Shown here: piece by piece, positions 3,823-22,273 of the stretch
Layout of the letters: the number at the start of each line of letters is the position of its first letter
Numbering within the stretch: position 1 is the first letter of the stretch
Assembly: GCA_013288745.1 (NCBI GenBank)
Contig: JABDBG010000021.1
Coordinates: 1-35,456 of the forward strand
Direction: 5' to 3'
Source of the DNA: Bacteroidota bacterium
Lineage (GTDB): Bacteria; Bacteroidota; Bacteroidia; Chitinophagales; Chitinophagaceae
DNA length: 35,456 nucleotides
Translations under genes and position numbers: made by a program
Notes under the pieces: generated by a model
Database searches by the model: none
What the model was told of the DNA's origin: nothing
The model's input: the letters and a program-made list of their open reading frames with translations, nothing else

Positions 3823-3939
3823 TTAACTGTGGTGTTGAATGAACCATAATCCTCCTGCCAGTATAATTAGTGGGACGAGGAAAATGACAATACCGATAAT
3901 GATCTTCTTAGTCAGAATTTTTACATCTAGTAATTGCAT
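3823..3939 (-). CDS. 38-aa single-TM mini-protein: MQLLDVKILTKKIIIGIVIFLVPLIILAGGLWFIQHHS
   Basis: Hand-translated small ORF between sulfatase and sterol desaturase genes. About half the residues match the mini-protein at 733..855. Confidence 0.65.
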   Translation of the reverse strand: MQLLDVKILTKKIIIGIVIFLVPLIILAGGLWFIQHHS

Positions 3940-4014
3940 AGTCTATTATTTTAATAGAGTAATTGGTTATAAAATATCCTCCGAAGAAATTTTATCTCTG
4001 GAGGAATGATTTGT

Positions 4015-5865
4015 TTATTTTATTGGCGCTTGTATATTGTTTCCGTTTGGATGATGTATTTTTTTATTGTTTACATCATACCAATCGATCAGCGGATATA
4101 AATGATTGGTGGTAGCTTGTTCATCAAATACTTTTTTTAACTCAGCTAATTTTTCAGGGTATTTTTTTGCAAGATCATTTCTCTCATTAAAATCTTCGTC
4201 AATGTTGTATAATTTCCAAACATCGTCATCGAAGCTCTTATCAGCAATGGGTGCTCCCTGAGAAAAATCATAGTCAACATTATCCGGACGGTGAGGAGAT
4301 TCTGCTTTCCATCCATTGGAATAAATAGAACGATTGCCAAAAATATAATAGTACTGTATTGCATGCCTTGATTTCGCGTTAGCGCTATCAATAGAATAGG
4401 CTAGTGATGTTCCTTCAATACTATCTTGTTTAACATCTCTGATGTATTCAGGTTTTTGAATTCCGGTTAATTCTAACGTCGTTGGCAAAATGTCGATTAC
4501 ATGTCCGTATTGATTACGGATACCTCTTTGTTTAATGCCTTTCGGATAAAAAATGATCAAAGGGTTATGCGTACCACCTTCTGCGTCAGCATTTGTTTTC
4601 CATTCTTTAAATGGCGTATTAGCTGCCTGTGCCCAGCCTAATGGATAATTAGTTTGAGCATTAGGTGTACCAATAGAATCAATATCAGCCAGATTTACTT
4701 TTAAATAATCTGCTTCAGATGTAGTTCTTGCAGGGTTTGTTTTAGGTTCTATTGTTCCTTCCTGCGTACCTTCTTTGCTTGCACCATTGTCACCGATTAT
4801 TACATAAACGATCGTATTGTCCAATAAATTATTTTCTCTCAGGTAATTGATTACTCTGCCAATTTGATAATCGGTGTAAGAAAAGTAACCTGCATATACT
4901 TCCATGAATCTTTCAAATAATTTTTTCTGGTCTGCTGTTAATGAATTCCAAGCTGGTACACGAGGATTGCGAGGAGGTAATTGTGCGTTTGCAGGAACGA
5001 CGCCTAGTCTTTTCTGATTAGCTAATACTTGTTCACGAAATACATCCCATCCCTGATCAAATTTTCCTTTGTATTGATCACTCCAATATTTATCTACCTG
5101 GTGAGGTGCGTGAGTGGCGCCCGGTGCATAATATAAAAAGAAAGGCTTGTTGGGTGCAACTTTTTCCTGGCGTGATAAATAAGCAATTGCTTTATCAGTG
5201 ATCTGCTCATTTAAATGTCTTCCATCAGGAGTAACATGCGCCTGGTCTTCTACAAGATCAGGTTTGTATTGATCGGTTGCAGAACCGAGAAACCCAAAAA
5301 AATGATCAAAGCCTTTTTGTGTTGGCCAGTGATCGAAAGGTCCGGCATCTGTTGCTTCTTCATCGGGCGTTAAGCCGTATTTACCTACAGCAAAAGTGTT
5401 GTATCCATTGGCTCTTAATATTTCAGCCAATGTTCCATCGCTAGAAGGTATTCTTCCATCCCATCCAGGAAATCCTGCGGATAAAGCTATATGAGAAAAC
5501 CCGCTTTCATGCACAAAAGCACTATTACGGCCTGTTAATAAAGCAGAGCGTGTAGGCGCACAAATTGCGCAGGTGTGAAAGTTCGTATAGCGGAGACCGT
5601 TATTGGCTAAACTATCAAGTGTAGGCGTATGTATCAATCCGCCAAAAGCGCTTGATGCACCAAATCCTACATCATCTAGTATGATCAATAGAACATTAGG
5701 TGCTCCTGTGGGAGCTTTAACAACGGGTGCCCACCATTCTTTTGAATCGCCTAATGTTTTACCGACAGTTCCCTGATATATTTGTTGGTCCTGCGCATAA
5801 GAATGTTGTGTCGACAAGCTACCTATCAATATTGCGATGGAAGCAAGTATGTTTTTCTTATTCAT
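4015..5865 (-). CDS. Cys-type arylsulfatase, exported
   Basis: Signal peptide; sulfatase signature CAPTRSALLTGRN (C-x-P-x-R); NVLLIILDDVGFG; GDNGAS. Confidence 0.93.
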   Translation of the reverse strand: MNKKNILASIAILIGSLSTQHSYAQDQQIYQGTVGKTLGDSKEWWAPVVKAPTGAPNVLLIILDDVGFGASSAFGGLIHTPTLDSLANNGLRYTNFHTCAICAPTRSALLTGRNSAFVHESGFSHIALSAGFPGWDGRIPSSDGTLAEILRANGYNTFAVGKYGLTPDEEATDAGPFDHWPTQKGFDHFFGFLGSATDQYKPDLVEDQAHVTPDGRHLNEQITDKAIAYLSRQEKVAPNKPFFLYYAPGATHAPHQVDKYWSDQYKGKFDQGWDVFREQVLANQKRLGVVPANAQLPPRNPRVPAWNSLTADQKKLFERFMEVYAGYFSYTDYQIGRVINYLRENNLLDNTIVYVIIGDNGASKEGTQEGTIEPKTNPARTTSEADYLKVNLADIDSIGTPNAQTNYPLGWAQAANTPFKEWKTNADAEGGTHNPLIIFYPKGIKQRGIRNQYGHVIDILPTTLELTGIQKPEYIRDVKQDSIEGTSLAYSIDSANAKSRHAIQYYYIFGNRSIYSNGWKAESPHRPDNVDYDFSQGAPIADKSFDDDVWKLYNIDEDFNERNDLAKKYPEKLAELKKVFDEQATTNHLYPLIDWYDVNNKKIHHPNGNNIQAPIK

Positions 5866-5913
5866 TTTTTCTTATTTTTTTGTTATGAAATGATTTATTT
5901 TTTTTATGATTGA

Positions 5914-7503
5914 TTACCATCCGGGGTTTTGGTAAAAGTTTGGATTTTGTCCTGCGTAGAGATCAATTTCTGTTTGTGGTATTGGGAACAATGTATCTTT
6001 CAATGTTGCAGCAGCTTTAGGATTGTTAAGCATGCCATGAACCGCATTCAGATAATATTGCCCTGCCGGTAAACCATCTTGTCCTGATCTTCTTACCAGA
6101 TCAAACCAGCGTTGCGATTCTTGTATGAACTCTTTTCTTCTTTCTAAATAAACAGAATCACGAAAATCTGCCTGGTTCAAACCCGGTGTGAGATCGTGTG
6201 TATGATCAGCATAAGTTCCACCACTGCTGTATACACCATAAGCTCTTGCTCTTACGATATTGATAGCAGTATATGCATCAGCCGTAGGACCCGCATTTAA
6301 TTCATTTAAGGTCTCAGCTTGTAAAAGCAAAATTTCTGCATAACGGATAATAGGAAAATTAACGCCGCTTAATGTTTGTGATGTGATAGGCGATACGGAA
6401 GAGTCAATGTATTTAGCGAAATTGAAGTAGGGCCATTTTACTGTTTTAGTGCCATTCTTTAAAGAGTCGAAAAACGTAACATTTCTTCTTTGATCTGCGA
6501 TAGCAAATAAATTAACGATCGTACTATCAGCCGGTATATCGCCCGTGTAGGTTGAAGTGGTAAATGTGCTGAAGTCGCCATTGCTTAAATTTTGCTGGCT
6601 GTTAACTGCACCTCCATTGTATTTGAATTGCGCAGAGAAAATATGTTCAATGCCATTTTTATAAGGCGTTTGAAAAATATGAGAGAACAAAGGGAATAGG
6701 TCATAGCCATAAGTACCGGTTGCTCCTGTGACAGTTCCCGCAGTTAGTGTTTTTAATAATTGAGTTTCTGCATTCGTCCAATCGTGCCGGGTTGCATATA
6801 CTTTAGCTAACAATGCGTGTGCTGCTCCTGCTGTAACGCGGCCTATATCAGCAGGATCGGTAACAGGGGAGTATGTCCCGGGCAAATTGGTAGCATCGGT
6901 TAGATCTGAAATTATTTGTGCATACACAGAATCTTTTGGTGCGCGGCTAACCAATGCGTTAGCAGTGTTTACATCACCCGCATCATGCAATACTAAAGGA
7001 ACAGGACCGAATAAACGAACCAGATTAAAATAATATAGCGCTCTAATAAACTTAGCTTCTCTTATTAAATTGATCGCAGGATGTGTAATGTCAACAAATT
7101 GAGAAGACGGAATATTTGGAATATTATCTATTGCTACATTGGCCTTATCAATCCCCCAATACAACTGCGCATATATTTTGTGCACACGGTCATTTGAAGA
7201 AATATAAGTAGCTGTACCAAGTGCCCTTACGTCGGGGTTTGTATTCGACGGACTATACACCTGGTTATCGCTTGTATTGTCTATTATTAAATTCAGGTTG
7301 CGTCCGTAGATAGGGAAATCTGCATTGATATCTGTAGACAGTGTACTATAAGCCGCTGTTACTGCAGCCACAGCATCTGATTGCGTTTTGTAAAAAGTTG
7401 TTGACGCAATACTTGTCTTTGGATTTTCATTCAATTTGCTGCAGGATGCTAAAGAACTTCCTATCAATATAAATGCGGCAGTGGTTATTAATATATTTTT
7501 CAT
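5914..7503 (-). CDS. SusD/RagB-family outer-membrane lipoprotein
   Basis: Lipoprotein signal ending SSLASC; SusD features (IREAKFIRALYYFNLVRLFGPVPLV; RRKEFIQESQRWFDLVR; FPIPQTEIDLYAGQNPNFYQNPGW). Confidence 0.95.
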   Translation of the reverse strand: MKNILITTAAFILIGSSLASCSKLNENPKTSIASTTFYKTQSDAVAAVTAAYSTLSTDINADFPIYGRNLNLIIDNTSDNQVYSPSNTNPDVRALGTATYISSNDRVHKIYAQLYWGIDKANVAIDNIPNIPSSQFVDITHPAINLIREAKFIRALYYFNLVRLFGPVPLVLHDAGDVNTANALVSRAPKDSVYAQIISDLTDATNLPGTYSPVTDPADIGRVTAGAAHALLAKVYATRHDWTNAETQLLKTLTAGTVTGATGTYGYDLFPLFSHIFQTPYKNGIEHIFSAQFKYNGGAVNSQQNLSNGDFSTFTTSTYTGDIPADSTIVNLFAIADQRRNVTFFDSLKNGTKTVKWPYFNFAKYIDSSVSPITSQTLSGVNFPIIRYAEILLLQAETLNELNAGPTADAYTAINIVRARAYGVYSSGGTYADHTHDLTPGLNQADFRDSVYLERRKEFIQESQRWFDLVRRSGQDGLPAGQYYLNAVHGMLNNPKAAATLKDTLFPIPQTEIDLYAGQNPNFYQNPGW

Positions 7504-7522
7504 TGTTGTCTTTTTTATGTTT

Positions 7523-10500
7523 CTAAAAAGTAATATTTAGTCCTGCTAAGAATGTTTTGTAATGTGGATAGACTCCTGCATCAATTCCAGGTAACAGGTT
7601 ATTCTGATCATAGAAATTTGCTTCAGGATCTAATCCGGAATAATGCGTGATCGTTAATAGGTTTTGCGCAGAGATGTATAGCCTGATCTGCTTCGCAAGA
7701 ATTTTTGAAGCGATGTTTTTTGGAAAAGTGTAACCGAGTGTCACATTCTTTAACCTGATGTATGAACCATCTTCAACATAAGTATCCTGCACTTGAGCAA
7801 CGGGAGCATTTACCGCTTTAGGATACCTGCCGGTAGGATTATTAACAGAATCAAACCTGTCTAACAAGACTGCTGAAGCATTGGTGGTAGTTTTAGTTAT
7901 CTCTAATTGTTGTTGTTCAAGGTTAAATAACTTATTGCCAAATGATCCCTGAAAGAAAATTGACAGATCGAATCCTTTATAGGTGAAAGTATTCGTCATG
8001 CTTGCCGTAAACTTCGCTTGTGCATTCCCTAAATTGTGTTTATCATTTGGATCAACTTTTCCATCCCCGTTTGTATCAATATATTTTCTATCTCCTGTTT
8101 GTTGCGATACGCCTGCTAATTTCGGTGCCGGATGCGCCCCGTAAACATCAGCGGTAGTTAACAATCCATCTGTACTATAGCCCCAGAATGTGCCTATCGG
8201 TAGTCCAACCTTTAAAATTTCAGGAGATACCTGGCCTGTAGCAGCTACCGGTTGAAAAGATTGACTTGGGCCAAGACTTAATATTTTATTGGCATTAGTG
8301 GCGTAGATCAATGTTGTTTTCCAATCAAAATCTCCTGCTTTGATATTATCTGTATTCAAAGAAAGTTCCACACCTTTATTTTGTATGCTGCCGATATTTT
8401 CAGCGACAGAAGCATAGCCTGTTGATAAAGGAACAAGTCCGCCGGCACTTACAAATAAATTGGTTGTCTTTTTATAATAAGCATCTGCTGTTAAAATGAT
8501 ACGGTTGCTTAAGAATGAAACATCGATACCTCCATCATACTGCGTGGTTGTTTCCCATGTTAAATTTGGATTGGCCAATTGTATTTGCGAAAGTCCTTGG
8601 GCAATATTATTTCCAAAGAAATATGTGTAAGGCCCTCCGGCTAAAGCAGGCGAGGTATAAGAAGGAATGTTCGCGTTACCTGTTTGTCCTGCAGTAGCCC
8701 TAAGTTTTAAACTGTTGGCTACATTCGTAAATTTCTTAAAGAAATTCTCATCAGACATATTCCATGAAACACCAATGGAAGGGAAGAAGCCATATTTTTT
8801 ATCCGGACCTAAAACGGAGGCACCATCGTATCTGCCCGATACGCTAACATTATATTTATGTTCGAATGAGTAATTAATTCTTCCCAGCCAGGATTGAATA
8901 GTGTTTGGTGCTTCTGCTGATGAACCTACAACCGGTGAACCATAAGACAGGTTGTTGAATGAAAATAAGTTGGTTGGAAAATTCTGCGCGTTCGATACAA
9001 CTGATTCTACATTTTGTTGTTGAATGGTATAACCTGCCAGTAAGTCTACATAATGTTTCTCATTAAATATATGGCTATACGATAACGTGTTTTCATTTAA
9101 CCAGCTAACAGAATGGCTTACGCCAACAGACGCATACCCATTTACACCAGCACCTGTAGAAAGTCCCCCTGCACCGCCTGGTGATGCAGTAAAGTTTGGC
9201 GCATAATAATTTTGTTTAGCATTTAGGAAATCTGCGCCACCAGTAATTTTTAAAAGTAAATCCTTAGTTAGTTTGTATTCAGCAGAAAAATTTCCTAAGA
9301 AGCGTGTGAGAATAGTTCTGTTGATAGTTGCTGTAATATCCTGTAAGGGATTTGTAGTATATGGCTGTGTTGTATTATTGATCACTGAAAAGAAAGGATC
9401 AGCTGTAGTATAGTAAGTTCCGTTTGCATTTCTTATCGGATGTAAAGGGCTTACCGTTAATAAAGTTGTAAAAGCGTTCCCAGAATTTAAAGCATTGAAA
9501 GGCCCTGTTAATTTATCTTCGGTTGAACTGCTTCCAAAAATACTAGTGGATACTTTTAATTTATCTGTAGCATTTTTTTCATAGTTAACTCGACCTGAGT
9601 ATCTTTCAAAACCGGTATTTAATAATGTTCCCTGTTGATTAAAATAATTTCCTGAAATAGAATACCTTGATTTTTCATCACCACCATAAATGGTTAACTG
9701 GTGATTTTGTATCGGCGCATTTCTGATAGCAGCTTTTTGCCAGTCGGCCGTTTGCCCTGTTCCACCCAAAGAATCTATTTTAGCTTTTGTTGCAGGTCCC
9801 GATCCTGTTTGTAATGTAGGCGTGGCTTTATAAATATCATCGTACAATTTTGCCCATTGCGGGCCATTCATTAATGATAATGTTTTATCAACCTGTTGTG
9901 TACCGTAATAACCACCGTAAGAAATATTGTTGCTGCCCTTTGTTCCTCTTTTTGTTGTGATGATCACAACTCCGTTTGCGCCACGTGAACCGTAAATAGC
10001 TGTGGCGGCAGCATCTTTCAACACGTCGATCGATTCAATATCACTTGGGTTAATAGTAGCTAGTGCGTTTACAGTTACGCCCGGAGAAGAACCGGTATTA
10101 GCTGCGCTGTTATTATTGTAATAAATAAATCCATCAATAACATACAATGGATCATTACCAAAACTTAACGAGTTTCCGCCACGAATTCTTATACTCGATC
10201 CTGCACCCGGCTGACCGGAACTTTGCGTAACTGTAACACCCGATACGGCACCTTGTAATAAGTTATCGGCAGAAGTTACGGGACGACTTAAATTTTCTTT
10301 TGAGACAGATGATACAGAACCCGAAACATCTTTTCTTCTTTGAGTGCCATAGCCAACTACCACTACATCTGATAATTGATTGGGCGCATCTTTTAACCGC
10401 ACATCTACAAATCCGTTATTAGTGCTATCTACTGTTACCAATTGCGTTTGATAACCGATAAAGCTGATAAATAAAGTGATTGGTAATTTTTTATAAGTGG

Positions 10501-10717
10501 TTAATTGAAACCCTCCTTTATTATCGGTGATAGCTGTATTGGTAGAACCTTCAATATGTATGGTAGCGCCTGCAATTGAATTTTTTGTTTTAACATCTGT
10601 AACCGTACCTGTTATGGTAGTATTTTCTTGTGCTTTTGCAGATAAAAAGCCGATGGCGAGAAAGAAACCGGTAAAGGCAAAAAGTTTCGCCGTTTTGTAA
10701 GCATTGATTTTACTCAT
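7523..10717 (-). CDS. SusC/RagA-family TonB-dependent outer-membrane transporter
   Basis: Carboxypeptidase-like N-domain, plug motif VVVGYGTQRRKDVSGSVSSV, ATAIYGSRGANGVVIITTKRG, C-terminal beta-barrel ending in F. Confidence 0.97.
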   Translation of the reverse strand: MSKINAYKTAKLFAFTGFFLAIGFLSAKAQENTTITGTVTDVKTKNSIAGATIHIEGSTNTAITDNKGGFQLTTYKKLPITLFISFIGYQTQLVTVDSTNNGFVDVRLKDAPNQLSDVVVVGYGTQRRKDVSGSVSSVSKENLSRPVTSADNLLQGAVSGVTVTQSSGQPGAGSSIRIRGGNSLSFGNDPLYVIDGFIYYNNNSAANTGSSPGVTVNALATINPSDIESIDVLKDAAATAIYGSRGANGVVIITTKRGTKGSNNISYGGYYGTQQVDKTLSLMNGPQWAKLYDDIYKATPTLQTGSGPATKAKIDSLGGTGQTADWQKAAIRNAPIQNHQLTIYGGDEKSRYSISGNYFNQQGTLLNTGFERYSGRVNYEKNATDKLKVSTSIFGSSSTEDKLTGPFNALNSGNAFTTLLTVSPLHPIRNANGTYYTTADPFFSVINNTTQPYTTNPLQDITATINRTILTRFLGNFSAEYKLTKDLLLKITGGADFLNAKQNYYAPNFTASPGGAGGLSTGAGVNGYASVGVSHSVSWLNENTLSYSHIFNEKHYVDLLAGYTIQQQNVESVVSNAQNFPTNLFSFNNLSYGSPVVGSSAEAPNTIQSWLGRINYSFEHKYNVSVSGRYDGASVLGPDKKYGFFPSIGVSWNMSDENFFKKFTNVANSLKLRATAGQTGNANIPSYTSPALAGGPYTYFFGNNIAQGLSQIQLANPNLTWETTTQYDGGIDVSFLSNRIILTADAYYKKTTNLFVSAGGLVPLSTGYASVAENIGSIQNKGVELSLNTDNIKAGDFDWKTTLIYATNANKILSLGPSQSFQPVAATGQVSPEILKVGLPIGTFWGYSTDGLLTTADVYGAHPAPKLAGVSQQTGDRKYIDTNGDGKVDPNDKHNLGNAQAKFTASMTNTFTYKGFDLSIFFQGSFGNKLFNLEQQQLEITKTTTNASAVLLDRFDSVNNPTGRYPKAVNAPVAQVQDTYVEDGSYIRLKNVTLGYTFPKNIASKILAKQIRLYISAQNLLTITHYSGLDPEANFYDQNNLLPGIDAGVYPHYKTFLAGLNITF

Positions 10718-10807: not shown

Positions 10808-10908
10808 ACAATAAGGCCGACAGTAAGCGCTTAATGCACTTACTGTTTTCCCAAGCCTCTTTGTTACCGGCCAGAACTGCTCCAACAGTTTCTGGCCATT
10901 TTTTTATT
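10808..10908 (+). ncRNA. Candidate small RNA divergent from susC, or antisense to its leader
   Basis: TATATTTG (10795-10802) fits the Bacteroidota -7 element, though no good -33 was seen. Two hairpins follow, the second (GGCCAGAA...TTCTGGCC + T7) a + strand terminator. No + strand CDS lies upstream to need it. Confidence 0.4.
10869..10908 (+). terminator. Intrinsic terminator on the + strand
   Basis: GGCCAGAA-CTG...CAG-TTTCTGGCC stem followed by ATTTTTTTATTT. Confidence 0.7.
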
Positions 10909-11098: not shown

Positions 11099-11182
11099 TT
11101 AGCAGCAACAACAGCAACATGGAAATGTAATTGCCTTTATGCAATTAAGTGCTGTGTAAGTATATCGTAAAGATGATAACAT
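11099..11182 (-). CDS. Candidate cysteine leader peptide: MLSSLRYTYTALNCIKAITFPCCCCCC*
   Basis: ATG at 11182-11180; six consecutive Cys codons (TGT TGC TGT TGT TGC TGC, + strand 11102-11119) directly before TAA (11101-11099). Located in the susC operon leader. Confidence 0.7.
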   Translation of the reverse strand: MLSSLRYTYTALNCIKAITFPCCCCCC

Positions 11183-11286: not shown

Positions 11287-11329
11287 CAAACGTAGTGTTA
11301 ATTTATTAGTCTACCAAAATTATAGACTA
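11287..11329 (-). promoter_or_regulatory. Promoter of susC operon with overlapping palindromic operator
   Basis: -7 TACGTTTG (11294-11287), N20, -33 TTTG (11318-11315). Operator TAGTCTA-CCAAAATTA-TAGACTA (11307-11329), perfect 7-bp arms. Confidence 0.65.
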
Positions 11330-15592: not shown

Positions 15593-17110
15593 TTAATGTA
15601 TTACTATCTGAACAGCTTTCCAAAGTGTATTCGTACTTGTTAAAATAACTAAAATACCCACCAGGATAAACATTGTTTTTAAAGGAAGTTTACCAACTAA
15701 CCTGGCTGCAATGGGAGCAGCGATCAACCCACCAACAATAAGTCCTGCTACTTCTAATAGTGGAATATTTTTTAATAAGATAAAAAATGTAATAGAGCTG
15801 GTGAGTACTACAAAAAATTCAGCCAGGCATACGGAGCCGATCACATACCGTGGACTTTTTCTTTTGGCCATTAATGTACTTGTAACCAATGTTCCCCAGC
15901 CACCACCTGCAAATGCATCCATAAATCCTCCGATAGAAGCGAGCCAGCCTGCATTCTTTACTTTATCTGTATTTTTTCTTTTTGAAAATGCTTTACGCAT
16001 TATATAATAACCCAGGTAAATAGTATAAATGGAAAGGGGAATCTTAACATAAGTAGAATATTTTTGACCGTAATAAGCCAGTGCAGCGCCGATCAAAGCT
16101 CCGATAGCACCGGGGATCACTAATGCCATAAATAATTTTTTATTGATATTGCCAAAACGGTGATGACTATACCCCGATACACCACTGGAGAAAACCCTTG
16201 CTGAATGTACCCTGCTGCTAACGATAGCCGGCGGTACACCGTTGGCCAATAAAAATGTGGTAGAGATAGTGCCGTACCCCATGCCCAATGATCCATCCAC
16301 CATTTGCGCAATGAAACCTGTCAATAACATTATTAAAAATCCATTGATCGTATGTTGTGGCAGGTTTTTAATTTCTGCTGTAACATCAGCAAAAGAAAAA
16401 TATGATGCCAGCCCATATCCTACAAGTAAAATAGTAAAGGCCAGCAAGCACCACAATACGATCTTGGTCCATTTTTTTTCGTGTTGTTCGTGATCGTCTT
16501 TTAAATTGGTCTGTTTAGCAACCAATACTTTAGTTAAGTCGTTCAATTGTTTTACTTTTTCGTTGAAGTCACCCTTCATGCCTTGTCTTATTGTTTGAAT
16601 GTTATCTAATACATTTTCCATTTCATCCGGTATCATTTCATCGATCACCTGTTTTAACCGTTTAGCGATGGTAGGAGATTTCCCATTAGTAGAAATGGCA
16701 ATTTTAATATTCCCTTTTTTTACAATAGAGCTCAAATAGAAATCACATAGTTCAGGTTTATCTGCTACGTTGACTAATTTATTTTTTTGCCTGCAGTCTT
16801 TGCTGATCTGTTCGCTTATAGAAATATCGTTCACTGCAGCTATTACAATATCAACCCTATCAAGGTCACTGATGTGATATGCTTTTTGTTGTAATGAAAT
16901 GTTGGGATATTGCTTAGCTAGCTCCTGAATTTTATCACTGATGGAAAGCGATATCAATTGAATAGAAGTGGCAGGAGAATTTTGTAATACAGCAGTTAAT
17001 TTTTCCAATGCAATATTTCCTCCGCCGATGATCAGCAGGCGGAAATTTTGCAATTTCAGAAAAAGAGGAAATAAGGTGTTTCCACCTGATATGGTATTGT
17101 CCTGCGCCAT
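15593..17110 (-). CDS. Fusion: N-terminal siroheme synthase (precorrin-2 dehydrogenase/ferrochelatase-like) + C-terminal TauE/SafE (TSUP) transporter
   Basis: N-terminal LLIIGGGNIALEKLTAVL, NVADKPELCDFYLSSIV and ISTNGKSPTIAKRLK; C-terminal GFIAQMVDGSLGMGYGTISTTFLL and AFAGGGWGTLVTSTLMA. Confidence 0.9.
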   Translation of the reverse strand: MAQDNTISGGNTLFPLFLKLQNFRLLIIGGGNIALEKLTAVLQNSPATSIQLISLSISDKIQELAKQYPNISLQQKAYHISDLDRVDIVIAAVNDISISEQISKDCRQKNKLVNVADKPELCDFYLSSIVKKGNIKIAISTNGKSPTIAKRLKQVIDEMIPDEMENVLDNIQTIRQGMKGDFNEKVKQLNDLTKVLVAKQTNLKDDHEQHEKKWTKIVLWCLLAFTILLVGYGLASYFSFADVTAEIKNLPQHTINGFLIMLLTGFIAQMVDGSLGMGYGTISTTFLLANGVPPAIVSSRVHSARVFSSGVSGYSHHRFGNINKKLFMALVIPGAIGALIGAALAYYGQKYSTYVKIPLSIYTIYLGYYIMRKAFSKRKNTDKVKNAGWLASIGGFMDAFAGGGWGTLVTSTLMAKRKSPRYVIGSVCLAEFFVVLTSSITFFILLKNIPLLEVAGLIVGGLIAAPIAARLVGKLPLKTMFILVGILVILTSTNTLWKAVQIVIH

Positions 17111-17124
17111 TTTAATTGATGGCG

Positions 17125-17170
17125 CAAAGGTAAAATATTATTGGTTAAAGCCCATTAAAAGTATAGACTA
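17125..17170 (-). promoter_or_regulatory. Promoter of the CysG/TauE gene with half-conserved operator
   Basis: -7 TACCTTTG (17132-17125); AAGCCCA-TTAAAAGTA-TAGACTA (17148-17170), one arm perfect. Confidence 0.5.
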
Positions 17171-17207: not shown

Positions 17208-17972
17208 TTAGCTTATGTATCCCTTTACATATTCCTGGGTTAATTTTTCTTTTGGCCTTAATAAAATATCCTCGGTTGGGCCGAATTCTATGATCTCTCC
17301 CATGTATAAAAAAGCGATATAATCAGATAAGCGGCGTGCTTGTCTTAGGATATGCGTAACCAATACCAATGTATATTTATCTTTTAGCTGTAAAAAAAGT
17401 TCTTCGATCTTTTGTGTTGAGATCGGATCGAGTGCAGAGGTAGGTTCGTCGCCTAAAATAATTTCAGGTTCAACCGCTAAACCGCGTGCCAGGCATAAAC
17501 GTTGTTGCTGACCGATAGATAATCTTGCGGCAGAACCATTTAGACGGTCCTTTACTTCATCCCATAAACCTGTTGCGGTAAGATAATGTTCAACAAGAAC
17601 ATCCAATTCTTTTTTCTTTGTTGTACCATGCAATCTTGGGCCGTAGGCGATATTATCATAGATACTCATTGGTAATGGAAAAGGGCGTTGAGATAGCAAT
17701 CCCATCTTTTGGCGCATGCTGGTCACTTCAATATCTTTTCCATAAATATTTTCTCCATCCACTAAAACCTGTCCGTCGATCTGTACATCTTTATTACGAT
17801 CTAATAAACGATTAAATGTTTTTAGCAAAGTAGTTTTTCCGCAACCAGATGGGCCGATAAAAGAAGTTAATTTTTTATCAGGAATATCGATGTTGATATT
17901 TTTTAAAATATGATTGCCCCCAATGTGAACATTCAGGTCCTTTACACGTATATGCGGCGATTCAAAAGTCAT
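17208..17972 (-). CDS. pstB: PstB-like ABC transporter ATPase
   Basis: Walker A GPSGCGKTT; signature LSIGQQQRLCLARGLA; Walker B IILGDEPTSALDP. Start at MTFESPHIRV avoids overlap with pstA. Confidence 0.88.
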   Translation of the reverse strand: MTFESPHIRVKDLNVHIGGNHILKNINIDIPDKKLTSFIGPSGCGKTTLLKTFNRLLDRNKDVQIDGQVLVDGENIYGKDIEVTSMRQKMGLLSQRPFPLPMSIYDNIAYGPRLHGTTKKKELDVLVEHYLTATGLWDEVKDRLNGSAARLSIGQQQRLCLARGLAVEPEIILGDEPTSALDPISTQKIEELFLQLKDKYTLVLVTHILRQARRLSDYIAFLYMGEIIEFGPTEDILLRPKEKLTQEYVKGYIS

Positions 17973-17973
17973 G

Positions 17974-18822
17974 TTATATTTTATGCTTTGATAATTTTTT
18001 ACTGAAATATTTTGCACTTAAACTTATTATTAAAACGATGAAAGTTAATATTAATGCCGCTGCATAAGCGCGGTTCTGTACTTCTTCGATCGGACTGCTC
18101 AATTGAAAAAATATGGCCAGCGGTAAGGTCGCTGTTGGCTGTCCCAATGAAGTTGGAATACTATCCGTATACCCTGCTGTAAATAAAACGGTAGCAGCAT
18201 CGCCGATCGCTCTGCCGAATGATAATAAAATCGCTGTGATGATACCGGGGATCGCTTGCCTTAAAAATATCAAAGAAGTTTCCCAGCGTGTTGCACCTAA
18301 TGCGTAAGTAGCATCAGATAATTCTGTTGGTGCTAAACGGATCACTTCATCAATAGCACGCGCTAAAATTGGTATCACTAATAAAGTAACGGTAATGATA
18401 CCTGCTAACAAAGAAGCCCTTAACCCAAAATAAACCATGATGGTAAAACCAAATGCGCCATACACAATAGATGGAATACCAAATAATACATCGAAGGTTA
18501 AGCGTGTAATATTTGCCAGCCATGAATTTCTTTTGGCATAAATATTTACGTATAGTACAACAGGTATGCTAATAACCAAACCCAATACGGTAGCTCCAAT
18601 GCTGATATATAGTGATCCGATGATGGCATTTAAGATACCACCGCCTTTGCCGATATAATAACCGCCTTCGGGAACTTTGCTGATAATATCCCAGGTTAAA
18701 GATTGCATGCCTTTTGATGCGATCGTATATAATATCATCAATAAAGATCCGGCAATAATTAATGTTGCCAGTATCATTAGCATTTTAAAAAATCCAGATT
18801 CTATTCTTCTTCTCAATTGCAT
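17974..18822 (-). CDS. pstA: PstA-like permease
   Basis: Polytopic permease; ALGATRWETSLIFLRQAIPGIITAILLSFGRAIGDAATVLF. Confidence 0.88.
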   Translation of the reverse strand: MQLRRRIESGFFKMLMILATLIIAGSLLMILYTIASKGMQSLTWDIISKVPEGGYYIGKGGGILNAIIGSLYISIGATVLGLVISIPVVLYVNIYAKRNSWLANITRLTFDVLFGIPSIVYGAFGFTIMVYFGLRASLLAGIITVTLLVIPILARAIDEVIRLAPTELSDATYALGATRWETSLIFLRQAIPGIITAILLSFGRAIGDAATVLFTAGYTDSIPTSLGQPTATLPLAIFFQLSSPIEEVQNRAYAAALILTFIVLIISLSAKYFSKKLSKHKI

Positions 18823-18823
18823 A

Positions 18824-19717
18824 CTAACTTCTATTTTCTATTCTATATAATATCAATCTTGAGATCGCATTGAATATAAAAATGATAACAAATAATATTA
18901 AGGCTGATAACATCAGTGCAGATTCATACATTGGTATCGACATCATATCACCATAATTATTAGCGATCAATGCCGGTAATGGATAAACAGAATCAAATAA
19001 TGAATGTGGTATCATCGGTAAATTACCGCAGACCATCAGCACGGCTAATGTTTCACCGATCGCTCTTGATATACCTAATACAGTTGCTGCAATAATGCCT
19101 GGTACCGATTTTTTTAGGACTACCTTTCTTGTTGTTTCCCATTCAGTCGCACCTAATGATAAAGAAGCTTCTTTCAATTCTTTAGGAACGGTATCAAACA
19201 CTTCCAATAAAATACTAACGATCAAAGGAAATACCATAACCGCTAACACGATACCACCTGCCAATGCACAATACCCCGAAGAGTAATCTACAAAATGTGG
19301 AGCGATATGATCGCCGATATAAGGAACAATTGTCAGTACACCCCATACCCCATATACAACGGGAGGTATACCCGATAAAAGATCGATCAATGGAACTAAT
19401 ATTTGTCTTATTCTATGCGGCGCATATTCTGCAATATAGATGGCGCATAATAAAGAAAGAGGTAAGGCTATTATGATGGCAATACCAGTAACTGCCAACG
19501 ATCCTATGATGTAGGAAAAGAAGCCGAATTCATTTTTGAATGGTTTCCATTCTGTCGAAGATAATAAATGCCAGAGCGTATCTTGTTGTAGTATTGGCGA
19601 AGATTTATAATACAACCCATAGCCGATAAGCACTACCGTTAAAATAGAGAACAGGCTAAGCTCAAGAAATATATTTGCGCTTAACCTATCCTTTAACAAT
19701 CTTATTTTATAACTCAT
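18824..19717 (-). CDS. pstC: PstC-like permease
   Basis: SLGATEWETTRKVVLKKSVPGIIAATVLGISRAIGETLAVLMVCG. Confidence 0.88.
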   Translation of the reverse strand: MSYKIRLLKDRLSANIFLELSLFSILTVVLIGYGLYYKSSPILQQDTLWHLLSSTEWKPFKNEFGFFSYIIGSLAVTGIAIIIALPLSLLCAIYIAEYAPHRIRQILVPLIDLLSGIPPVVYGVWGVLTIVPYIGDHIAPHFVDYSSGYCALAGGIVLAVMVFPLIVSILLEVFDTVPKELKEASLSLGATEWETTRKVVLKKSVPGIIAATVLGISRAIGETLAVLMVCGNLPMIPHSLFDSVYPLPALIANNYGDMMSIPMYESALMLSALILFVIIFIFNAISRLILYRIENRS

Positions 19718-20667
19718 TTAAGCTTGTTTAATCCTGCAGTTATTTTCGCAGGAGAAAGTGTGATATAACCTTGTTCCGGTATAAATTTTTGTCCGTCCGT
19801 TAAAACGTATTTGATAAATTCTTTAACAGCTTCAGTTTTAGGAGCTCCTTTTGTTACAAAGTAAAGATCTCTTGCGGGAGGCGAAGGATATTTACCTGTA
19901 GTAATAGCTGCAACGATCTGGTCAATAGTGCCGTAAAAATTTTCATCAGCATCTATTTTGCCATTATTGTTTAGGTCGATCGGTAGAGGTATTACACCAT
20001 TAGTAGCTTGTTTTGTATTTTGGTCATAGACGTAAACAATATTATTGAATCCAATTCCTACGGGATCTTTTTTTACGGCTTGTGCTAAACCCGGATCTCC
20101 GTATACTGCTACTCCTTGCAAGTCGTCTTGTTTCTTGCCAAAATAATTTGCCCATGTTTCAGCAGCACCTGCTGCATCAGAACGGGTATACACGTGAATA
20201 GGCGCATTACTTTTTTCACCCGCTTGAGCCCATACTCTTGCATTACCTGTGATAAAGATATCATTCAATGCACTTTTTTTAATTCCTTTTGCTAACAGGT
20301 CTTTAAGGAAAGGATTATTAGCACTAACAACAGGAACTACTGCATCTTTTGTTACAGCAAAAGGGTTAGCGCCTTTTTTACTTTCTTCCGGAGTTAAATT
20401 ACGCGATACCAATCCGATATCTGTAATGCTTGATAACACATCCGTAATGCCTTTTCCTGCACCACCTGCAGAAACATCGATCTTTACATCTGGGTGTAAT
20501 TTTCTAAATTCTTCTGCCCATTTTACAGTGATGGGGTATAGTGCAAATGCACCCGAAATACTGATCGTTCCTGATAATTGATCAGGCCGAGTTGGCGAAT
20601 CTTTGTATGAGCTGAATGTTACCCAACCTAAAGCAAGAAATACTGCCAATAATATTGTCTTCTTCAT
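19714..20667 (-). CDS. PstS-like periplasmic substrate-binding protein; substrate uncertain
   Basis: SGAFALYPITVKWAEEFRKLHPDVKIDVSAGGAGKGITDV; overlaps pstC start by 4 bp. Confidence 0.85.
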   Translation of the reverse strand: MKKTILLAVFLALGWVTFSSYKDSPTRPDQLSGTISISGAFALYPITVKWAEEFRKLHPDVKIDVSAGGAGKGITDVLSSITDIGLVSRNLTPEESKKGANPFAVTKDAVVPVVSANNPFLKDLLAKGIKKSALNDIFITGNARVWAQAGEKSNAPIHVYTRSDAAGAAETWANYFGKKQDDLQGVAVYGDPGLAQAVKKDPVGIGFNNIVYVYDQNTKQATNGVIPLPIDLNNNGKIDADENFYGTIDQIVAAITTGKYPSPPARDLYFVTKGAPKTEAVKEFIKYVLTDGQKFIPEQGYITLSPAKITAGLNKLK

Positions 20668-20685
20668 AATAGTTGTTTTAAGTAT

Positions 20686-20724
20686 AAATGCTGAATGTCA
20701 TTTTAATAATAGCATTCAGCATTT
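20686..20724. promoter_or_regulatory. Intercistronic hairpin between porin and pstS
   Basis: AAATGCTGAATG-N15-CATTCAGCATTT perfect 12-bp stem without a strong T-tract on the minus strand. Confidence 0.6.
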
Positions 20725-20731
20725 AAATAAT

Positions 20732-21991
20732 TTAGAATGCAATTTGTAATTGCGCTGTTGCTACATCATTATATTGTACAGCAGGGATATTTCCTTGTTC
20801 TGTTCTCCATGAATAATCAAGCTGCAATTTTGCCCAATTATTGAAGAAGATATTAGCTCCAAAAATTAAATAAGTATTGGCATCGCTTATCTTATTCAAG
20901 CCAGGACTTTTAGGATTAACAACAGGGCTGTAAGTATCATACTTAACAACAAACTGGAATTTTTTAGGAATGAAGAAGTATGCAGCTTGTGCATACCAAC
21001 CTTGATGAATTGCCGGAACAGGTTGAGAAGCATAGTGCCTGTCATTACCATCTTGTCCGCGCAAGAATTCACTTCTTAAGGAGAAGGCTTTGTAGTTTAC
21101 AGCTAATTCAGTTCCCCAGCGTGTGCGCAATTGATCTTTAGTGGGTGTTTTAGCAAATCTATCGTAACCATTATAATAGGATCCGCCAACAGTTAAGAAA
21201 TCAAACGGGTGAATTAATAAACGACCGGAGAAATCTTTCGATTCGTTGTTATCTGCCACATTAATACCTGCACCATTAAATAGGCCTGCGTAATAATCAA
21301 TTAAAGATCTTGTGTCGTTGATCTTGAAAAAACTACCGCTTATTTGCACACCAAGGTCACGGCCATTCTGATTACCGATAGAATCGATAATGCCGTTTGA
21401 GCCATCACCTTTTCTTGCTACCAATGCATTTACAACCTGTGATCGATCTACGGTTTCAAGATTTCTATCTTGCACATTGTTTTCCAAAGAAAAGGGCAAT
21501 GTAAATTGACCTGCAGTTATTTTTAAATAACTCGCAGCCTTATAAGCGATATATGCATCTAGTAATGTTGGTGATATTACCGCGTTTGTTGTAGTTGTTG
21601 ATGTTCCTGCGGGTACTGAAGATGTTCCCCCGACAAAATCAACCAATAAGCGGTATTGCCATTTGGAAGTAATATCTCCATTGATATCCAATCTTGCTCT
21701 TCTTATATCAATACCGTCTGCTTTGTTAGCTTTTGGATATGCCTGGTACCTTACTTGAGTGTAGCCACCTATCTGGAATGCACGACTTGCATTAATAGGG
21801 AATACTTTTTGCTTTGCTTTTTCATCTTGCTTCGCGATGGCAGAAACTGCGCGGATCGAATCTGCTTCTTGTTGCGTAATAGTTCCCTTTGCGATCAGGA
21901 TATTTAATACATCATCCGATGTCTGTGCCGATGCCTTTACAGCAAATAGTATTGTAAAAATGGCGATCGATAATAATTTAATAAGTCTCAT
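20732..21991 (-). CDS. OprP/OprO-like porin (phosphate-selective porin family)
   Basis: Signal peptide; N-terminal coiled coil (LIAKGTITQQEADSIRA); FQIGGYTQVRYQAYP; DIRRARLDINGDITSKWQYRLLVDF; C-terminal F. Confidence 0.85.
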   Translation of the reverse strand: MRLIKLLSIAIFTILFAVKASAQTSDDVLNILIAKGTITQQEADSIRAVSAIAKQDEKAKQKVFPINASRAFQIGGYTQVRYQAYPKANKADGIDIRRARLDINGDITSKWQYRLLVDFVGGTSSVPAGTSTTTTNAVISPTLLDAYIAYKAASYLKITAGQFTLPFSLENNVQDRNLETVDRSQVVNALVARKGDGSNGIIDSIGNQNGRDLGVQISGSFFKINDTRSLIDYYAGLFNGAGINVADNNESKDFSGRLLIHPFDFLTVGGSYYNGYDRFAKTPTKDQLRTRWGTELAVNYKAFSLRSEFLRGQDGNDRHYASQPVPAIHQGWYAQAAYFFIPKKFQFVVKYDTYSPVVNPKSPGLNKISDANTYLIFGANIFFNNWAKLQLDYSWRTEQGNIPAVQYNDVATAQLQIAF

Positions 21992-22052
21992 CAGTCTAGT
22001 AATTTAGTAGAGTTTTAAAATAAAAAAAGTAATAATTGTTTTATGTAAAATC

Positions 22053-22181
22053 TTAAATGTCCCCATTGGGACAGCAACAGCTGTTGATAATTGCAACCAT
22101 TTGTCCTTTGTGCAAAGACAATATAGCAGTATGACTAATAGTAGCCTGTGCGTTGTTTGGTTTAATTAATTGTGATGCCAT
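22053..22181 (-). CDS. Candidate cysteine leader peptide: MASQLIKPNNAQATISHTAILSLHKGQMVAIINSCCCPNGDI*
   Basis: ATG at 22181-22179, open for 42 codons, stop 22055-22053; three consecutive Cys codons TGT TGC TGT. Sits between promoter and porin start. A downstream in-frame ATG (22100) would give MVAIINSCCCPNGDI. Confidence 0.65.
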   Translation of the reverse strand: MASQLIKPNNAQATISHTAILSLHKGQMVAIINSCCCPNGDI

Positions 22182-22194
22182 TGTTAGTTGTATT

Positions 22195-22217
22195 TAGCCT
22201 ACTAATATGGTAGACTT
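22195..22217. promoter_or_regulatory. Second operator copy, just downstream of the -7 element
   Basis: TAGCCTA-CTAATATGG-TAGACTT, N9 spacer, near-perfect dyad. Confidence 0.55.
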
Positions 22218-22230
22218 TTGTTTGATGAGG

Positions 22231-22273
22231 CAAAAATAGGAGGTTTGTATTACCCCACCAAATTAATAGACTA
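22231..22273 (-). promoter_or_regulatory. Promoter of the porin/Pst-like operon with overlapping operator
   Basis: -7 TATTTTTG (22238-22231), N20, -33 TTTG (22262-22259); TACCCCA-CCAAATTAA-TAGACTA (22251-22273). Confidence 0.65.

Follow-up and report, generated by a model that had tools for sequence, protein, structure and literature searches.

What do a sulfatase-linked susCD operon, a porin/Pst-like transporter operon and a siroheme/TauE gene share, that the same palindrome should recur ahead of them? The stretch of DNA analyzed here (the window) is a whole contig of 35,456 nt from a genome that is 72% complete and close to Ferruginibacter (Chitinophagaceae), its Rrf2 protein being 85-88% identical to Ferruginibacter records. 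A first-pass annotation, made from the sequence alone, had described four palindromes in it and inferred that one factor co-regulates sulfur functions. Our analysis indicates that the palindromes belong to a sulfur regulon, and that several sulfur-scavenging gene clusters share a site that very probably serves one Rrf2-type repressor, DNA binding being inferred.

Sequence inspection and a mismatch scan confirmed all four palindromes at the positions first given for them (Table 1). The scan returned six matches to TAGTCTA-N9-TAGACTA with no more than three mismatches in the window, compared with 1.45 expected from dinucleotide shuffles, and none of 100 shuffles reached six; the sites with three mismatches are therefore unconvincing by that count alone. 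Plain mismatch counting being insufficient as proof of weak sites, it was replaced by a position weight matrix (PWM) of 23 positions, trained on 31 sites. All of these came from other genomes because TAG and CTA words are rare, and for the same reason a reversed-pattern control (180 versus 46) is not a matched null, so that permuted matrices were used in its place. Six sites of at least 15 bits are observed in the window against 0.04 expected from symmetric column-permuted matrices, and under the external matrix the three-mismatch sites become convincing. The PWM also adds two operators, at 3939 and 21992, which had been overlooked in the first pass together with the cysteine leader peptides and the sulfur (not phosphate) link of the Pst-like operon described below. 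The final base of the 3939 operator is the A of the ATG of an ORF for a 38-residue membrane peptide, MQLLDVKILTKKIIIGIVIFLVPLIILAGGLWFIQHHS, which lies between the sulfatase and FA_hydroxylase genes.

Table 1. Features of the window, with the cysH leader found elsewhere in the genome. Mismatches are to TAGTCTA-N9-TAGACTA (window mismatch scan).
Feature	Position	Strand	Mismatches	PWM (bits)	Remarks
Operator, susC/susD/sulfatase promoter	11307..11329	-	0	26.0	Over -33 element; perfect 7+7 palindrome
Operator	3939..3961	-	1	25.1	Precedes 38-residue membrane ORF, FA_hydroxylase, rhodanese/thioredoxin and FGE sulfatase-maturation genes (Pfam)
Operator O1, porin/Pst-like operon promoter	22251..22273	-	3	24.9	Over -33 element
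Second operator	22195..22217	-	2	23.6	Just 3' of expected transcription start (~22227)
Operator O2	21992..22014	-		17.0	Directly 5' of porin start codon
Weak operator	17148..17170	-	3	15.5	38 nt upstream of CysG-N/TauE fusion gene
susC operon promoter	11287..11318	-			TTTG-N20-TACGTTTG; pattern scan
Porin/Pst-like operon promoter	at 22262	-			TTTG-N20-TATTTTTG; pattern scan
susC operon	4015..10717	-			susC 7523-10717, susD 5914-7503, sulfatase 4015-5865 (ORFs)
Porin/Pst-like operon	17208..21991	-			Porin_O_P 20732-21991, PstS-like 19714-20667, PstC, PstA, PstB (Pfam)
CysG-N/TauE fusion gene	15593..17110
38-residue membrane-peptide ORF	3823..3939	-			MQLLDVKILTKKIIIGIVIFLVPLIILAGGLWFIQHHS
susC leader ORF	11099..11182	-			MLSSLRYTYTALNCIKAITFPCCCCCC, ends TFPCCCCCC; six Cys codons directly before stop
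Porin leader ORF	22053..22181	-			MASQLIKPNNAQATISHTAILSLHKGQMVAIINSCCCPNGDI, ends INSCCCPNGDI; between promoter and porin
cysH leader ORF	outside window				MLFTASIMGMCNCCSIKVYCC; 5' of cysH
Hairpin between leader and susC	10870..10900 (approximate)	-			GGCCAGAAACTGTTGGAGCAGTTCTGGCC; no T run; -18.7 kcal/mol

Identical promoter geometry had been claimed for two operons, and this held for the promoters at 11318 and 22262 and not for all sites. On the minus strand TTTG-N20-TAnnTTTG occurs only at these two positions, both inside operators; with spacings of N19-N21 the window contains no further match on either strand, and widening the range to N18-N21 adds a single plus-strand match, TTTG-N18-TAnnTTTG at 2555. 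At the 17148 site a TAnnTTTG box (17132-17125) can be read by eye, but 20 nt before it no TTTG stands out. Going by the -33/-7 consensus of Bacteroidota, we infer that transcription of the susC operon would start at ~11283. The susC promoter of another genus (L301) has the same geometry, an operator covering the -33 element of TTTG-N20-TAnnTTTG. That such a position suggests repression, as first proposed, is still an inference from the placement of the operator.

We rescored a whole-genome mismatch list with the PWM and obtained 11 sites above 15 bits, the next best reaching 10.4. Six are on the window contig, cysH, rrf2/prx and a DUF4395 gene account for three more, and two (C18:4588 and C44:2029) are not evidently sulfur-linked. 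A motif scattered without enrichment for sulfur genes would have refuted the proposal of a single co-regulating factor; by this test it was not refuted, and the proposal is well supported. The operator at C18:4588 (L019:4588), between M20 peptidase and recQ-like helicase genes, is the strongest in the genome at 28.3 bits.

The targets in the window include a sulfatase (Pfam Sulfatase, 2.7e-64), and the cysH cluster, cysH-cysD-cysN-cysE-cysK-cobA-cysJ, lies on another contig with an operator copy inside cysH. In same-genus relatives the cysH promoter carries an operator at -7/+1; a Cys-rich leader of ~21 codons comes next, and another operator lies within the start of the cysH coding sequence. 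In this genome the promoter operator looks decayed and the intragenic copy alone remains. At the same-genus loci the intragenic operator forces the Leu codons CTC and CTA, which make up 3% and 7% of Leu codons in the window. At the same-genus loci the paired operators are 171-195 bp apart, with no single helical phase. Across Bacteroidota the motif is found in or before cysH and before rrf2/prx, TauE, TonB/SusC receptor, sulfite-reductase-like and sulfatase genes, and PWM sites occur at TauE or CysG-TauE genes in Chryseobacterium and L124 also. The fusion protein of the window joins an N-terminal CysG (siroheme-synthase) part to a TauE/SafE transporter; in relatives, related sequences, often TauE-like, lie beside rrf2 or cys genes. 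An unexpected regulon member was seen in six Chryseobacterium loci (L101, L102, L106, L107, L110 and L113), where an operator precedes a kbl-like (glycine C-acetyltransferase) gene.

Which protein binds these sites? The window had been said to encode no regulator, and for Rrf2 at least this is correct, since the genome's single Rrf2 lies on a different contig. Both Rrf2- and LysR-type candidates had been suggested for testing; Rrf2 is the one that the evidence picks out, LysR not having been specifically sought. The protein matches Pfam Rrf2 at 3.4e-31, and its profile matches CymR (2y75) at 5.5e-18. Its gene has the operator in its promoter, between rrf2 and a divergent peroxiredoxin gene, and the same-genus rrf2 loci have an operator in 13/14 cases, three of them with the operator between divergent rrf2 and cysH. 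Among 81 Bacteroidota rrf2 copies, an operator is near 41/45 of those that are sulfur-linked compared with 0/36 in other contexts, many of the latter adjoining dapB. In 80 named public-genome loci rrf2 adjoins cysHDN, cobA, prx or TauE in Chitinophagaceae, Chryseobacterium, Kaistella, Niabella and Terrimonas, and in a set of 59 relatives cysH and the close Rrf2 orthologue are mostly found together within the genus (Fisher 4e-5, uncorrected for kinship). Two caveats apply: the motif near rrf2 partly reflects common ancestry, and another regulator may be missing because the genome is only 72% complete. In L096, L100, L114, L122, L134, L136 and L151 another set of closely similar Rrf2 genes lies near dapB; ParAB genes often accompany these copies, which have no operator. 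Variant operators, with TTCCTA/TAGGAA-type arms round the same CTA...TAG core, were also seen (L303:7872, L207:10714, L205:9308 and L047:2094); they lie at susC, rrf2, pstS or cysH of other genomes and suggest that Rrf2 specificity has shifted there.

Alternatively, the palindromes could bind another factor (LysR/CysB-like or other), with rrf2 merely one more target. In favor of this are the lack of binding data, the incompleteness of the genome and the existence of pst-linked rrf2 loci without a PWM site (L197 and L203). We nevertheless consider it very unlikely: the sites track the rrf2 gene itself, in genomes where the arms have changed (L205, L207 and L303) the variant sites lie at rrf2, pstS or susC, and the symmetry of the sites about a CTA...TAG core suits a dimeric winged-helix protein such as Rrf2. 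A different possibility, which cannot be dismissed, is that Rrf2 senses redox, peroxide or Fe-S status and that sulfur control is secondary. The divergent peroxiredoxin neighbor and four invariant cysteines (C91, C100, C103 and C108; spacing x8, x2, x4) speak for it. Against it, most of the other clearly annotated targets concern sulfur acquisition, and redox sensing and sulfur control are not mutually exclusive.

The porin/Pst-like operon is a predicted target that resembles, in its architecture, a Pst phosphate transporter. Pfam detects PBP_like_2 (124.7 bits) and Porin_O_P, and in relatives pstS is followed by pstC, pstA and pstB homologues, which meets the PBP/PstCAB architecture; the PstS-like protein, present in 18/396 genomes of the order, scores below the curated PstS-family cut-off (132 versus 206.6 bits). 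In L193 and L209 the operon comes after cysDN-cobA-cysJ and before CysG/TauE, which one of the two genomes has on a different contig, and it clusters with rrf2 in at least nine relatives (L197-L200, L202-L205 and L207). The context is thus one of cys genes and rrf2 and not of phosphate, within a neighborhood survey that sought only the sulfur-related genes of this genome and rrf2. Given that the operon lies beside cysDN-cobA-cysJ or rrf2 in relatives, it probably encodes a transporter for sulfate or another sulfur source, the substrate being inferred from gene context. Operator pairs precede it in L193, L194, L201, L202, L208 and L209, and in L193, L194 and L209 the second operator is just before the porin ATG, as in the window. 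Between paired operators 5' of the Pst-like genes, intrinsic-terminator-like hairpins with a T run were noticed at L201:6199-6455, L208:9613-9743 and L194:6524-6605, the last of which would fall right at the start of the transcript.

Beyond the operators, three operons of this genome, susC and porin in the window and cysH elsewhere, start with a Cys-rich leader ORF. The Cys content of the susC leader exceeds that of dinucleotide shuffles (p <= 0.0005); the porin leader has only three Cys codons. The predicted distance from transcription start to leader ATG is 20-100 nt in this genome, compared with 1 nt in L193 and L209 and a start near the ATG in L301. The porin leader is not a conserved protein, its peptide having no homologue in 396 genomes. 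What recurs is cysteine: the leader peptides diverge in all but Cys, which is retained at the cysH of Chitinophagaceae and some further families and, in two other genera, at susC. Same-genus cysH leaders end, for example, SNKCCCC, RGQLCCC and TRKQCCC; when 79 regions upstream of cysH were surveyed phylum-wide, 7/11 Chitinophagaceae had poly-Cys leaders. The survey also showed such leaders in a second family of the same order (ending NNPCCCCCCC) and in a different class (MIFAISCCCCCCSKSLCSLM), and the genomes counted beyond the seven are L125 (with two copies; Saprospiraceae), L261 and L293. Chryseobacterium and other Flavobacteriia-type genomes have the operator alone or neither, with no leader in the regions read.

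At the sulfatase-susCD orthologues, L301 has a leader ending KQCCYSNMADSCCC, and L303 one ending KSRCCC after a related palindrome, AATTCCTACTAAATTAGTAGGAATT, without the TAGYCTA-type operator form of the window. In L302, from a third genus, fge and susC diverge with two operators between them, and no leader was found there. The porin leader has counterparts at the same place, between two operators, in L209 (ending NETKCCPSGT) and in L193 (ending KHYCPAGHLTD, with a single Cys). Leader Cys content exceeded that of shuffles in 13/14 cases (p 0.0005-0.03), the exception being L193 (p about 0.1). In an unbiased control, only 5 of 1,380 upstream regions had at least five Cys codons; two of these precede cysH-type genes in L125, a Saprospiraceae MAG, and are followed by strong terminators, and a third, in L133 (Flavipsychrobacter), is a leader that has a terminator and lies beside a 29-bit operator next to rrf2.

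How such leaders might act is less clear. A GC hairpin and T run follow the leader in L125, L133 and L293, whereas no intrinsic terminator was found at the window leaders or the same-genus cysH leaders. Intrinsic-terminator attenuation at the cysH of this genome was rejected: the fold z is 0.6, and the one terminator-like match is weak and implausible. The folding of cysH leader RNAs is not significant (z about 0). In models, stalling did not expose the cysH start codon consistently across orthologues. An antiterminator seen by eye in L125 (CCGAAG pairing with CTTCGG) had a probability of 0 at equilibrium in partition-function folding and was unsupported in any ribosome state. The hairpin between leader and susC in the window is conserved in L301, where GGCCGGAACTG...CAGTTTCCGGCC occupies the corresponding place (-18.8 kcal/mol) and differs from it by a paired change, A-U to G-C.

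These observations bear on a further alternative, in which Rrf2 control of the operons alone is real and the Cys-rich ORFs are chance or small functional thiol or metal peptides. The cysH leaders do lack a conserved RNA fold, the Flavobacteriia-type genomes read lack a leader and the porin leader of this genome is poor in Cys. Set against this are the leaders that recur independently, at cysH in numerous genomes and in three genera at susC, with a peptide free to change except at Cys, as well as the shuffle tests and the terminators behind several leaders (L125 and L133); moreover, it would be wasteful for genes switched on by a lack of sulfur to yield functional peptides rich in Cys. We regard this alternative as unlikely.

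Our preferred reading is therefore of two layers, a CymR-like Rrf2 repressor and Cys-responsive leader peptides, each of which would release sulfur acquisition from repression when cysteine runs short. The motif, its co-location and linkage with rrf2, its conservation, and the leader ORFs and their recurrence are shown by sequence; binding, ligand, stalling and relief of attenuation are inferred, which leaves the whole likely rather than proven. The absence of experimental support stands against it, as do the incompleteness of the genome, the shared ancestry of motif and rrf2, the decayed cysH promoter operator, the lack of folding support at cysH and in L125, the few Cys codons of the porin leader and its L193 counterpart, the operators without leaders in Flavobacteriia, the L303 leader without this operator form and the strong site before recQ. 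With cysteine or a related signal sufficient, the Rrf2 repressor would cover the -33, -7/+1 or start-codon region and block transcription of cysH-DN..., the Pst-like transporter, the siroheme/TauE gene, the sulfatase-SusCD operon and rrf2 itself. At three operons the second layer would come from a short leader ORF in which Cys codons are clustered: ribosomes would stall on it when Cys-tRNA is scarce, and the downstream genes would be expressed, whereas plentiful Cys-tRNA would attenuate expression. Because there is no intrinsic terminator at its own cysH, Rho- or translation-level control is probably a better guess for this genome than a trp-type terminator, again by inference. A bolder reading, which we would neither press nor discard, is that paired Rrf2 operators flanking a poly-Cys leader ORF combine looping or a roadblock with cysteine sensing by the ribosome in a way unlike described systems, covering cysH, SusCD-sulfatase and porin-ABC uptake, with leaders that arose repeatedly.

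Bacteroidota are major degraders of sulfated polysaccharides. In the open-access literature searched, which left most subscription papers outside its scope, we found no account of sulfur or cysteine sensing in the phylum and neither layer reported for it. The analysis supplies a named candidate regulator, a 23-bp operator, a target list and a set of short leader ORFs. If the proposal is true, some SusCD-sulfatase loci run for sulfur and not for carbon, a "phosphate" Pst/porin operon is re-assigned to sulfur, and cysteine-codon attenuation reaches beyond Actinobacteria, coupled to a repressor.

Among known regulators the closest comparison is with CymR, the Rrf2 master repressor of cysteine metabolism in Bacillus and Staphylococcus. 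The regulator described here is of the same family, has a sulfur/cysteine acquisition gene set and counts CymR 2y75 among its nearest solved structures. It differs in scoring 57.3 bits against a CymR equivalog cut-off of 195, in having its four invariant cysteines in a segment missing from the aligned 3lwf homologue, and in belonging to another phylum with another target set (sulfatase-SusCD and the Pst-like transporter). We conclude that it is related to CymR and CymR-like in its inferred role, and is not CymR itself. It also falls below all equivalog cut-offs for IscR, NsrR and RirA, and its cysteine spacing is not the one known for IscR.

For the leaders, the trp/his-type attenuators offer a leader peptide rich in the regulated amino acid, and the hairpin and T run of L125, L133 and L293 resemble them; they differ from the window and genus cysH leaders, which have no terminator, and the L125 antiterminator lacks support from folding. 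Leader-peptide attenuation has been noted at other amino-acid operons in flavobacteria (PMC9723704). Also close are the polycysteine leader ORFs described in mycobacteria (Canestrari 2020 as summarised in PMC9031893; PMC9094748), where cys operons have polycysteine leaders without conserved terminator hairpins and Rho has been proposed (PMC1262725). These mycobacterial and actinobacterial leaders share with ours a run of Cys codons ending a short ORF before sulfur genes with no need of a terminator. Judged by predicted starts alone, some Bacteroidota leaders (L193, L209 and L301) may be leaderless or nearly so, against the 20-100 nt predicted in this genome. Those described here differ in lying in another phylum, in encoding unrelated peptides flanked by Rrf2 operators, in including terminator-bearing forms (L125 and L133) and in standing also before outer-membrane sulfatase/SusCD genes.
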